From an uncultured Dehalococcoidia bacterium (GTDB lineage: Bacteria > Chloroflexota > Dehalococcoidia > Lucifugimonadales > UBA3495): a stretch of 64,000 nucleotides of DNA. The first letter of the stretch is position 1; each line of letters starts with the position of its first letter. Shown in pieces: positions 41,236-46,770 of this stretch. Under the pieces are notes generated by a model. That model saw nothing but the letters and a program-made list of their open reading frames with translations, was not told where the DNA came from and did not search any database. The position numbers and the translations under genes are program-made. The stretch spans positions 2,810,981 to 2,874,980 of the forward strand of contig OY282494.1 in assembly GCA_958296385.1 (NCBI GenBank). The letters run 5' to 3'.

Positions 41236-42054
41236 ATGACCACCACCACCATCACCACCACCGCAAACACCGCCGCCATCGCCGTCAAAACGCCGCCGGC
41301 AGCCGCGCCGGCCCGTTTCCGGTTCCCCGACCCACCCGAACGTGAGCTTGATGAGGCAATGACTAATTACCAGTATGTGCACTTGGTGGGCAGCCCCCTG
41401 CATCTCAGCCGGCACCTGGGCAGCCGGGATACCACCCTGGTGGGCGCCGACTTTTGGCTGGCCCGCGGGCCACGCCCCGGCACTACCGGCCTGCGCTGCC
41501 CCGATTTGCTCATCGCCTTTGACGTTGACCCGGCGGCTTACTTTGCCACCGGGGGTTATCTGATAACGGAGCAGGGCAAGCCGCCGGATTTTGTGCTGGA
41601 GGTGGCGTCGAAAAGCACCGCCCGCGTGGATGTGGATCAGAAACCGGCCGACTACGCTGGGTTAGGCATCCCGGAGTACTGGCGCTTTGACAAAACGGGG
41701 GAGTTTCACGACACGCGGCTGGCCGGCGGCCGTTTGGTGGATGGGCGGTATGAGCCTATTCCGATTGAGGAACTGCCGGATGGGTCTTTGCAAGGATATA
41801 GCGCGGTGTTGAACCTGTACCTGCGGGCGGAGCAGGACGGGTTGGGGTGGTACGACCCGGAAACGGGGCAGCACATCCCGACGTTTGACGACAAGCATGA
41901 AGCCCAACTCCGAGCCGAGGCCCGTGTTGAGCAGGCTGAAGCCCACATTGAGCAGGCTGAGGCCCGTGCGGAGCAGGAGCGCGCCGCCCGCCTCCAGGCT
42001 GAGGCGCAGGTGCTTGCGTTGCAGGAGGAGTTGCGGCAGCTCCGCGACGGTTAA
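41236..42054 (+). CDS. Uma2-family (DUF820) putative endonuclease
   Basis: This encodes a 272-residue PD-(D/E)xK-fold protein. After a Thr/Ala-rich start, the core spans about residues 35-195: LRCPDLLIAFDVDPAAYF, the catalytic region GKPPDFVLEVASKSTARVDV with D, E and K, and KPADYAGLGIPEYWRFD. The C-terminus is a coiled coil of repeated EQAEAHIEQAEARAEQERAA units. The family is very abundant in Cyanobacteria and Chloroflexota; its role is unknown, though mobile-element links are suspected. Confidence 0.85.
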   Translation: MTTTTITTTANTAAIAVKTPPAAAPARFRFPDPPERELDEAMTNYQYVHLVGSPLHLSRHLGSRDTTLVGADFWLARGPRPGTTGLRCPDLLIAFDVDPAAYFATGGYLITEQGKPPDFVLEVASKSTARVDVDQKPADYAGLGIPEYWRFDKTGEFHDTRLAGGRLVDGRYEPIPIEELPDGSLQGYSAVLNLYLRAEQDGLGWYDPETGQHIPTFDDKHEAQLRAEARVEQAEAHIEQAEARAEQERAARLQAEAQVLALQEELRQLRDG

Positions 42055-42104
42055 CTCCCGCTAATCTGCCGCCGCCGCCGTCAGGTTGACGGCCGCCTTT
42101 GTGC

Positions 42105-42110
42105 TAAAAT
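42105..42110 (+). promoter_or_regulatory. Probable extended -10 promoter of the surface-protein gene
   Basis: TTTGTGCTAAAAT has a TGN extension and TAAAAT, 75 bases before the ATG at 42186. That ATG has an excellent TTTGGAGG site eight bases upstream. A TTGACG lies 13 bases upstream of the -10, too close for a normal -35. Confidence 0.4.
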
Positions 42111-42185
42111 GTTGCGCTGTGTGCGGCGTGGCTTTGATTGGATAATGCGCTGCGCTGCATTGTTACTGCTTTGGAGGTTTTGCCG

Positions 42186-45100
42186 ATGTTGGGCCGGTTT
42201 GGACGCGCTCCGTTGCACAGGTTTAACAGCATGAATACTCGGGGGGGGGGGGGGGTAGAATGATGGGCCGCCGCCGCATCCGCATCTCCATCGCCCTGGC
42301 CGGCGCTGCTCTGGCCCTGTTTGTCGTGCTGGGTGGGCTGGCTGGTGCGCTGCTGCCTGAATCCACCCGGCCTCGGCTAACTCGAACCGCGTCACCGCTG
42401 TCAGCATTACCAGCGCCCCCGCTGCGGGTGATATTTACAGAACCACCGAAACCATCACCGTGCGGGTGACCTTCGCTGAATCTGTCACCAGTATCGTCGC
42501 TGGCAATCTGCGACTTGGCATTGGCCCCAACATCCGCAGCGCCACCCCGGACAGCATCAGCCCAAACAGCACGGACGTTGACTTCTCTTATGAGATCTTT
42601 GGCGCTGACTCGGACTCCGACGGCATCACTGTGGCCACCAACGCCCTCTCCGGCACTTTTACGCACCAACACGACAGCACTAATGACGTCAGCGCCAACC
42701 TTGCCCTCCCCAACACGCTGGCTACTGCGCAGGCCGGGCACAAGGTCAACGCTCCTACTACCGATTACGACGCCGATGACGACAACCTCATCGACATCAC
42801 CACGCTAGACCAGCTCAACGCCATCCGGTATGACCTGGACGGCAACGGCGATCCCACGGCCACCACCACTTACAACGTCGCTTTTCCGGGCCGCAATGCC
42901 GGCGCCACCGGACGGATGGGCTGCCCCGACGCCTGCGCCGGCTACGAGCTGCTGAACGACCTGGACTTTGACACCGACGGCGATGACGTCGCCGACGCGC
43001 CCTACGCCAGCTTGTCGCCCCTCGGCAATTACACGTCCACCTTTAACGGCAACGGCCATACCATCGCCAACCTGTCCGCATCGGCCACCGGCACTAATAC
43101 CAGAGGGGGACTGTTTGCGGAATTGGGCAGCGGCGGCGCCATCTCCGCAGTGGGACTGGTCAACCCCACGGTAAGCTCTACGGGCAATCTTAGCCGCACC
43201 GGCGGACTGGTGGGCGAAAGCAATGGCACAATCAGCGCCGTTTTTGTCAGTGGCGGCACTGTTACCTCCAACGGTGAGGACGCTTTCACCGGCGGGGTGG
43301 TCGGCCGGAACAACGGCACAATAAGGGCCGCCTATGCCACCGCCAGCGTCTCCAACAGCAACCGGGAATACAGTGACGCCGGCGGGCTGGTGGGCAACAA
43401 TCAAAACGGCACCGTCATTGCCAGCTACGCGGCCGGCTCCGTTACCGGCGGCGGCAACGGCACTGAACTCGGCTGTCTGGTGGGCAAAAACACCGGCGGA
43501 GGCTTGAACGGCACCATAACCAACAGCTATTGGGACTCTACCCTCTGCACCCACACCGGCGGCGGCGGCGCGGGCCATTCCACCACCGACCTGCAAACCC
43601 CCACCGGCTACACCGGCATCTACTCCCTCTGGAACCTGAACCTGGACGGCGTAACCGGGGGCGATGACCCCTGGTACTTCGGCGGCGCATCCGACTACCC
43701 CGTCCTGCAATACGGCCTGAACGCCGTGGCCACCTACCGGCTCAGAAACCCCGGCGCGGCCACCAAAGACTACGACGACGACAACAACAATCTGATTGAC
43801 GTCAAGACGCTGGCCCAGCTGGACGCCATCCGCTATGACCTGAACGGCGACGGGGCCGTGATTGGGGCGGGCGCCGTCGCCTACGGGGAGGCGTTCCCCG
43901 GCCTGACGACGGGGATGGGCTGCCCCGACGCCTGCATGGGCTACGAACTGCTGCAAAACCTGGACTTTGACAACGACAACAGCGGCGCCGTGGACAGCGA
44001 CGACGACTACCCTAATTGGGTGCCCATCGGAACTACCGCCGTGCCGTACACCGCTGCGTTCGACGGCAACAACCACACCATCTCCAACCTGACCATCGCC
44101 GCCGAGAGCCTCGGCACGGTGGGTCTGTTTGGCACGGTTCGCGGCGCCATCTCCGGCATCGGCCTGCCCGACGCTACCCTGACCGGGGGGGCGGCCAATG
44201 TCGCGATTGGCGCGCTGGTCGGCTCGCTGGAGACGGCCGGCACGGTAACGTCCAGCTGGACCACGGGCAGCGTGAGTTCCACCTTCACCGGCGCCGACGA
44301 AAAATCGGCCGGCGGGCTGGTGGGCTATAACCAGGGCGCGGTGCGGGCCAGCTATTCCGAGGCAACGGTGAACGTGACCAATACGGCCACGACGGTGCGG
44401 GCCGGCGGCCTGGTAGGGCGGCTGCACGGCGGCACGGTAACCGCCAGCTATGCCACCGGCGATGTAACCGGCGGCACCGGCAACACCACTTACGTCGGCG
44501 GCCTGGCGGGTTATCTCTCCGGCACGTCGCCCACCATCACGGCGTCCTACTCGACGGGAACGCCGCAGGCCGGCGGCACCGCCAACATCGGCGGGCTGAC
44601 CGGCAATACTGCCAGCGGCGTAACCGCCAGCTACTGGGACACCACCACCACCAGCCGCACCAGCGGCGGCGCCGGCACGGGCCAAACCACCGCGCAGCTG
44701 CAAGCGCCCATCGCCTACGGAACTACCGGCATCTACTCCACCTGGAACGCGGACATTGACAACGCCGATAACGACAACGACCTTACTACCGGAACCGACG
44801 ACCCCTGGAACTTCGGCACCGCCAGCGAGTATCCGGCGCTGCAATACGACGGCCTGGAACTTTACCGGCAGGAACGCGCTTTCGCTTTCAACCCCGCCGG
44901 GGTGACCGTAACCGAGGGCGACGCCGCCGGCGCAACCTACACCGTTGCGCTGAGCCGCCAGCCCTCCGGCACGGTAACCGTCGCCATCGCTAATACCGAC
45001 GGCAAAGCAACCACAACCCCGGCCTCCCTGACGTTCAACGCCGGCAACTGGAACACGCCGCAGAGGGTAACGGTCAAGCCGGTGTCCGACGCCGACCTTG

Positions 45101-46770
45101 CCGACAACACCGACACCATAACGCACACGCCCACCGGAACCGGCTACGGCGCCGGCGACGCGGCCAGCCTGTCCGTAAGCGTCCTCGACACCACCGCACC
45201 GGGCATCACCTTTGCGCCAATGAGCCTGTCCATCGCGGAGGGCACCGACGGCACCGAGTACACGGTGATATTGGATGACCCGCCCGCGGATGACACCACC
45301 ATCGCCATCACCACCGACATCGCCGGCGTCACCGTTGACTTGCCGAGCATCACCTTTACGACCGGCCTCTACAACGTCGCCCAGACGATAACGGTTGACA
45401 CGGAGGCCGACACCGCCACTGACCACGTAGCGTCCAGTCTGACGCACACCCCCACCATCCGGGGCATTGCCAGCGCCGCCGAGCTGCTGCCCGTGCTGCT
45501 GCACGAACCCGGCAACTCAACCTCAACCCCAATCGAGTTCAGAGCGCCGCCCCCCGGCCAGTCCTTCACCTACACCTTTGGCTCCCCGGGCGAGACGGTG
45601 ACGTACACGATAGACAGCGCGGCCGGCGTCCCCGCGGGCGTAACGGCCCGGACGACGGAGCTCCAGGGGTCGAGCGTGGACGCAACCTTCAGGTTCAGCG
45701 TGCCAGCTCACCCCGGCGGGCGCTCCGGCTACACCCTGGACCGGGATACGCTGGTGGACATCAGCTTAACGCGGACGGGAACAACCACGCCGCTAACGCT
45801 GCCCGGCAGTCTGGAAATCTGCCTGCCCCTGCCGGCCCACGGCAGCAACCCGCCCCTGCTGATGCACTACACGTCAGGCAGCTGGCGGACGGTAGGAACC
45901 ACCGTGCGCGGCAGCCAAGTCTGCGGCACGGTAAGCAGCCTCTCCCCATTCATCACCGGCCGCCTAACCGCCAGCACCCAACCCACCACCCCGCCGCCGC
46001 CGCCCGACGAGGGGGATGAGGACGACGACGAGGAACCGACGACCGGCACCGGCACTCCCAGCGGCGGCGGCTCCGGCGGCGGCGGTGGCGGCGGCGGTGG
46101 CAGCTTCGGAGGCGGCACAACGCCCAAGCCAACGCCAACCCCGACCCCCAGGGCGACGCCAACGCCAACGCCGGCCGCACCTACTCCGGCGCCAACCGCG
46201 ATGCCGACAGCAGTACCGGCCACGCCAACCCCAGCCCGTCCCACGCCAACGCCGGCGCCAACACCTGTGCCGACAGTAGCCCCAACGCTGGCCCCGGCCC
46301 CGCCGACGGCCACACCGCCAACACAACCGCCCCCGGTAGCGGCCCTAGTTCCGCAGCCGCCGGTAATCGGAGACATTACGTTCAGCAACGCTAACCCGCA
46401 ACCCGGCAGCGGCCTGACGGTAGAGTTCCCGGTAACCAACCCCGGAGCGGTAGCCACCGAGTACCAACTGGCGCTGGAAGTAGCCGGCGAGGTAGTCCAA
46501 CGCCAAACGCTAACCGTCGCACCCGGCGCAACGCAGGATTTGCAGCTGCCCATCGTAGCCCCGGATAGCCAGTCCGAGGTAACCGTTCGGGTAGATGAGC
46601 AATCCAAGACGGCAACCCTCACGCCGGCCGCATCCGAAACCGGAACGACGGCTGTTGGTGAGCAGGATGCTGGCGGTGGAGCGCCCTGGCTGATAATCGG
46701 CATTATCGCCGTAGTAGCCCTGGCCATCATCGGCGGCGCCATCGCCCTGCTGCGGCGGCGGCGCGGCTGA
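42186..46770 (+). CDS. GLUG-repeat membrane-anchored surface protein, frame broken near the N-terminus
   Basis: The best start is ATG at 42186 (GGAGG eight bases upstream). That frame runs into the poly-G tract and stops at 42261. One extra G would join it to a signal peptide frame (MMGRRRIRISIALAGAALAL at 42260 onward). Near 42355-42365 a second one-base shift leads into the mature frame, open to 46770. The mature part contains two GLUG-repeat arrays (about residues 190-390 and 540-760 of the 1,436-codon frame; for example GGLVGESNGTISAVFVSGGT), Calx-beta-like repeats (VTVTEGDAAGATYTVALSRQ), a Pro/Thr-rich stalk (TPTPTPRATPTPTPAAPTP), a CARDB-like domain, one TM helix (WLIIGIIAVVALAIIGGAIA) and RRRRG. 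It is a stalked adhesin-like protein held in the membrane at its C-terminus. Both shifts could be population variation or sequence error. Confidence 0.75.
42241..42255. repeat. Poly-G tract of 15 bases, candidate phase-variation switch
   Basis: Fifteen consecutive G sit between the ATG at 42186 and the signal-peptide frame. With 15 G the upstream frame ends at TGA 42261-42263; with 14 it ends at TAG; with 13 or 16 it reads into MMGRRRIRISIALAG. This is the arrangement of a translational contingency locus. Confidence 0.75.

Follow-up and report, generated by a model that had tools for sequence, protein, structure and literature searches.

A poly-G tract ahead of a GLUG-repeat surface protein is one of about 21 candidate contingency loci in an uncultured Dehalococcoidia bacterium (Chloroflexota)

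A run of 15 consecutive G residues (42241-42255, + strand) in a 64,000-nucleotide stretch of DNA from an uncultured Dehalococcoidia bacterium, hereafter called the window, is very probably a contingency (phase-variation) locus, one of about 21 that would switch surface, PMT-like, sugar-modifying and methyltransferase genes. Systems of this kind are well known in Campylobacter and Neisseria; in the phylum Chloroflexota, this one is apparently new. The original prediction had proposed a layout of slipped-strand phase variation for this tract. Comparison with paralogues and orthologues strongly supports this reading; the window copy of the gene carries an extra frameshift.

The tract lies on the + strand between a leader ORF and a signal-peptide frame. 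An alignment of ten paralogous 5′ regions brings into register an extended −10-like box, a spacer, GGAGG, the leader ATG, the leader codons, the G run and the signal-peptide start. In the window, the box (TGTGCTAAAAT) is found at 42100-42110 and is a putative promoter element. The Shine–Dalgarno sequence GGAGG of the leader (42173-42177) is shared by nine of the ten paralogues and by the relatives in G006, the genome of a second species. The leader ORF (42186-42263) starts at ATG 42186 and ends at TGA 42261-42263, which overlaps the next ATG; with 15 G, it reads MLGRFGRAPLHRFNSMNTRGGGGVE and then stops. At 42260 stands ATGATGGGC (MMGRRRIRISIALAGAALAL), the start of the signal-peptide frame MMGRRRIRISIALAGAALALFVVL, which runs for 69 residues up to a TGA at 42467-42469 (42260-42469). 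The 15 G and the GGAGG-preceded ATG at 42186 are exactly as predicted, and the predicted frame arithmetic is also correct: tracts of 13 or 16 G place the leader in frame with the signal peptide MMGRRRIRISIALAGAALAL, while 14 G produce a TAG directly 3′ of the tract and 15 G a TGA.

The prediction further assumed that the signal-peptide frame leads into the large surface protein, and this part fails, since the TGA at 42467-42469 closes that frame. The body of the protein, an open frame of 1,469 codons plus stop (42361-46770, + strand), opens after a stop at 42358-42360 in a frame other than that of the signal peptide. Comparison of frames with the paralogues 1079533 and 2162631 (genes are named here by position on the single contig of this genome, G000:C1) places a second frameshift, in a zone without homopolymer, between signal peptide and body (42340-42380, + strand). 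Because of this second frameshift near 42358, no tract length gives the full window protein as assembled; it may reflect either genuine mutation or faulty assembly. Within the body, the best GLUG motif (PF07581, 35 bits, Pfam cut-off 20.5) spans 44398-44469 (+ strand), residues 680-703 of the translation of 42361-46767, and the translation ends in a hydrophobic segment, ...APWLIIGIIAVVALAIIGGAIALLRRRRG (46681-46767, + strand), that would serve as a membrane anchor. These GLUG and other repeats, together with the signal peptide and the C-terminal anchor, are what the adhesin label for the window protein draws on, and it should be read as putative.

The 3.3 Mb genome contains 21 G/C runs of 12-27 nt, the window tract among them, against 0.26 expected, and a chance origin of the long runs was rejected on this basis. 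The expectation was extrapolated from G/C runs counted in 396 kb, where each added base between lengths 4 and 8 lowers the count about 4.5-fold; the genome stretches used were those around tracts and gene starts, and the 396 kb are mostly loci picked around tracts rather than a random sample, with a similar decay in the window alone. A local dinucleotide shuffle was uninformative because it retains the tract’s own GG steps. Eight runs of 9-10 nt showed no excess over chance and were excluded from the set. Two G10 runs (G000:C1:434456 and 1868473; L033 and L044) stand 3′ of copies of one interspersed palindromic repeat, GAGATTCTTCGCTGCGCTCAGAATGACATT; this context is unlike that of the long tracts. 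A G9 run (G000:C1:1639708; L039) is located in what looks like a spacer of a CRISPR-like array whose repeat is GGTCTATCCCCGCGTGTGCGGGGGAATC.

The 21 long tracts were sorted by all-against-all comparison and Pfam. At least 15 of them lie in surface-protein, PMT-like or methyltransferase genes, mostly classes known for phase variation; repeats long enough to slip stand in or before coding sequence and are over-represented in surface, glycan and methylation genes. Class A comprises six GLUG-repeat surface proteins (1079533, 2162631, 2500522, 2644669, 2853221, which is the window gene, and 2979167), with the tract between leader ORF and signal peptide. Class B comprises seven large membrane proteins with mutual sequence similarity (372576, 375092, 935558, 1495792, 1899889, 2788615 and 2945847). 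One of these matches PMT mannosyltransferase (PF02366, 26.9 bits), and the other members tested have no Pfam match; relatedness to that one member suggests that the class may be glycosyltransferases, and we call it PMT-like. Four class B tracts (372576, 375092, 2788615 and 2945847) lie deep inside coding sequence. Class C consists of an LRR surface protein (2682295), a small lipoprotein (2172320), a Type II-like DNA methyltransferase (3008465), an Ig-repeat protein (1679397), a GT4 (1685961) and the region before a glycerate kinase (443123), the tract being upstream of the gene in these last three, and a GT2 (2421250) and a sulfotransferase (1690695), in which it is near the C-terminus and alters the C-terminal tail only. 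GLUG-type surface proteins whose open frames measure some 5,600 to 8,600 codons were also seen at five regions of G000:C1 (near 636000-643900, 1930000-1943500, 2212000-2222400, 2644600-2657600 and 2955700-2971500).

Promoter box, leader and tract are common to all six class A paralogues, with differing tract lengths, and GGAGG is present in all but one. Two are in frame, 1079533 (G13) and 2644669 (G20), and the other four are out of frame; in 1079533, the same signal peptide continues into 1,543 open codons. A change in tract length shifts the leader-to-signal-peptide frame in the window and in most paralogues, the window body being in yet another frame. Just 5′ of the window tract gene lies a Uma2-family gene (PF05685, 51 bits; 41236-42054). 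Ala/Glu/Arg-rich C-termini resembling that of its product are found upstream of L180, L181 and L183, and several class A paralogues are preceded in this way.

Of the eight tract-free or short-run paralogues, five are fused in frame to the leader: 598675, in which GGAGGGGTGG replaces the G run and leader and signal peptide form one frame (MLARFGRVSFNSRIGRRGGRMMGRRRR); 1943510 and 1991556, each with 7 G; and L172 and L167 of G006. The other three (L180, L166 and L168) are unfused, so fusion may be dispensable for expression. L166 and L168, which have no long tract, show a leader stop that overlaps the next ATG, so that reinitiation may allow expression in other frames. Such an arrangement would be expected if the tract were a translational tuner, the leader being an upstream ORF, the protein starting at its own ATGATG, and the G run acting as a Shine–Dalgarno sequence whose length grades the coupling. 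Poly-G could pair with the anti-Shine–Dalgarno sequence, and in the window the leader stop overlaps the ATG at n=15 and falls just before it at n=14. However, the five paralogues fused in frame argue against a tuner, which is moreover inapplicable to the four tracts deep in class B coding sequence and to the methyltransferase; we regard it as possible but rather unlikely. Under the preferred contingency reading, the signal-peptide ATGATG may likewise be reached by reinitiation, and the switch may therefore be graded.

Frame states across the set are mixed. From plausible upstream starts, six genes are ON (1079533, 2644669, 375092, 1495792, 2788615 and 2172320), eight are OFF (the window gene, 2162631, 2500522, 2979167, 372576, 2945847, the LRR gene and the methyltransferase), and for 935558 and 1899889 the state depends on the start chosen; these calls are provisional, because starts were picked from sequence and the assembled length of long homopolymers is error-prone. 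Reversible silencing should leave long open frames in place, and most OFF genes retain them, but 2500522, 2979167 and the window gene are damaged further. This additional damage, namely the second frameshift of the window copy and the frameshifts or stops in 2500522 and 2979167 (two of the six class A genes), is what a decaying gene family would leave, with the window gene a pseudogene and its G run neutral debris. Against decay, the out-of-frame gene 2162631 still has 2,543 open codons downstream (an internal ATG is also in frame), 1079533 and 2644669 are both intact, orthologous sites carry tracts as well, and 21 neutral runs of such length would be unexpected. We judge this explanation very unlikely overall: decay is likely for the window copy taken alone, but not for the whole set.

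Comparison of the tract among related genomes, proposed as a check of the original prediction, came out in its favor: orthologous sites retain tracts and the lengths differ. The sites in 2945847, 1899889/2788615, the LRR gene and the GT2 gene keep tracts of other lengths in G006 and/or G015. At the class A junction, G006 has G tracts in four genes and C tracts in two genes of another subfamily, and the presence of both polarities at one junction points to selection for having a slippery run there. A platform that inserts or inflates G runs could also generate such tracts, and in several draft relatives (G019, G029, G091 and G155) G runs do cluster at contig ends; the many runs so placed in draft genomes are suspect. 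The present genome, in contrast, is a single contig, its runs lie inside conserved genes and have conserved flanks, and genomes assembled independently of it have runs at the orthologous sites too. An artefact is thus extremely improbable and largely refuted for the presence of the tracts, with their exact lengths uncertain. The distribution of long runs is restricted: 83 of 121 genomes in a sample of the phylum have no run of at least 12, none was found in 14 sampled genomes of the same class outside the near-relative group, and G010, of the same genus (one contig, 4.4 Mb), has no G run of at least 12, so that not every member of the genus has the tract set. Two relatives apparently derive from metagenomes of sponges, probably marine ones, which makes a host association of the lineage plausible; the free-living habit assumed in the original prediction is putative.

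The methyltransferase locus extends the set beyond the cell surface. A Type II-like DNA methyltransferase (N6_N4_Mtase ORF by Pfam; G000:C1:3007506-3008492, − strand; L060:6507-7493) contains a C26 tract at its N-terminus (L060:7466-7491; G000:C1:3008465). Orthologues carry C12 in G006, C17 in G015 and C12 in G011, and the next relative, G030, has no such tract. All four tract-bearing genes appear out of frame, an observation that counts against the contingency reading. Among 80 loci from public genomes, a run of at least 9 C at this site occurs only in the G006 and G011 records. No in-frame ATG, GTG or TTG exists between the tract and the conserved residues, so translation must cross the tract, and, as in a phasevarion, the frame of a DNA methyltransferase depends on a repeat of hypermutable type. 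The ORF overlaps a downstream ORF matching ThaI restriction nuclease (PF15514, 110 bits); if a nuclease adjoins a methylase that can be switched OFF, the cell might damage itself in that state.

The long tracts also share a flank. WWWNTC precedes 56%, 62% and 75% of the non-redundant tracts of at least 11 in G000, G006 and G015, respectively; for G runs of 6-8 drawn from the same loci, the share is 0-2%. C stands directly 5′ of 94-100% of long tracts versus 51-56% of those shorter runs. The flank often reads AAAGTC-Gn-TAGAAT (AAAGTC-Gn-YAGAAT-like) whichever strand, G or C, the gene reads, and its 3′ side is AT-rich (for example at L062, L063, L065, L067, L075 and L079). Part of this sharing is due to common descent inside families; related flanks also occur in unrelated genes, such as the methyltransferase (ATTCTC) and the Ig-repeat gene (AAAGTC), and are largely independent of gene family, whereas that of G033 differs (AGTAC). 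A lineage-specific process or factor might create, place or stabilise hypermutable G runs at a recognition sequence WWWNTC-Gn, a speculative proposal that we hold to be unlikely. Two other ideas were discarded. TAGAAT as a −10 box with promoter-spacer variation conflicts with its overlap with the start codon in class A and its wrong direction in C-sense genes, and a hairpin of the G run with an upstream C run, enriched in G000, was weak in G006 and G015. A MutS defect causing general hypermutability was likewise rejected, as MutS_I is present in 17 of 17 genomes.

From the layout, the tract excess, the conservation of sites with changing length and the mixed frames, we infer slippage, switching, surface location and function as follows. 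Ribosomes would load at the conserved GGAGG, begin at the leader ATG and translate through the G run, whose length would be altered by replication slippage. With 13 or 16 G, the leader would be fused in frame to the signal peptide (ON); with other lengths, a stop codon that overlaps or adjoins the second ATG would give an OFF state, or low expression through reinitiation. About 21 such loci may together make sister cells differ in their surface and possibly in DNA methylation. The window gene, with its OFF frame as assembled and its second frameshift, would at present belong to the set as a silent or decaying copy.

The PhasomeIt survey of the Campylobacter poly-G/C phasome described tens of G/C tracts per genome, many in surface or glycan genes (PMC6321876), and the present set is alike in tract number, gene classes and mixed frame states. 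It differs in phylum (Chloroflexota versus Campylobacterota), in the position of tracts at the leader-ORF/signal-peptide junction of giant GLUG proteins and in the common tract flank, and it is known here from genome sequence. In Neisseria, homopolymeric tracts are thought to switch surface genes (PMC5953494), a likeness of tracts and gene type; unlike that phasome, C-sense and G-sense tracts occur here at one junction of a single gene family. Helicobacter canadensis has 29 coding regions with homopolymeric tracts, some affecting the C-terminus only (PMC2823697), as in the GT2 and sulfotransferase genes here, in a different phylum and gene set. Phasevarions, that is, phase-variable DNA methyltransferases, have been reviewed (PMC5149525); the candidate described here resembles them in its long homopolymer near the N-terminus, conserved in three relatives, and, unlike Type III Mod phasevarions, is a Type II-like N4/N6 methylase beside a ThaI-family nuclease. 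Titles and opening parts of abstracts, an incomplete coverage of the literature, yielded no report of phase variation in Chloroflexi or Chloroflexota, the matches looking incidental, and an equally incomplete search found none on homopolymeric tracts in Chloroflexota; the words phase, adhesin and surface are absent from a sponge-Chloroflexi genome paper.

If the contingency reading is true, an uncultured Chloroflexota lineage possesses a phasome of Campylobacter size, including a possible phase-variable methyltransferase, and contingency switching of cell surfaces extends beyond mammalian pathogens. A host, phage or grazers may exert the selection, given the two relatives of apparent sponge origin. 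Annotation based on a single genome would then miscall many surface genes of such organisms as pseudogenes.
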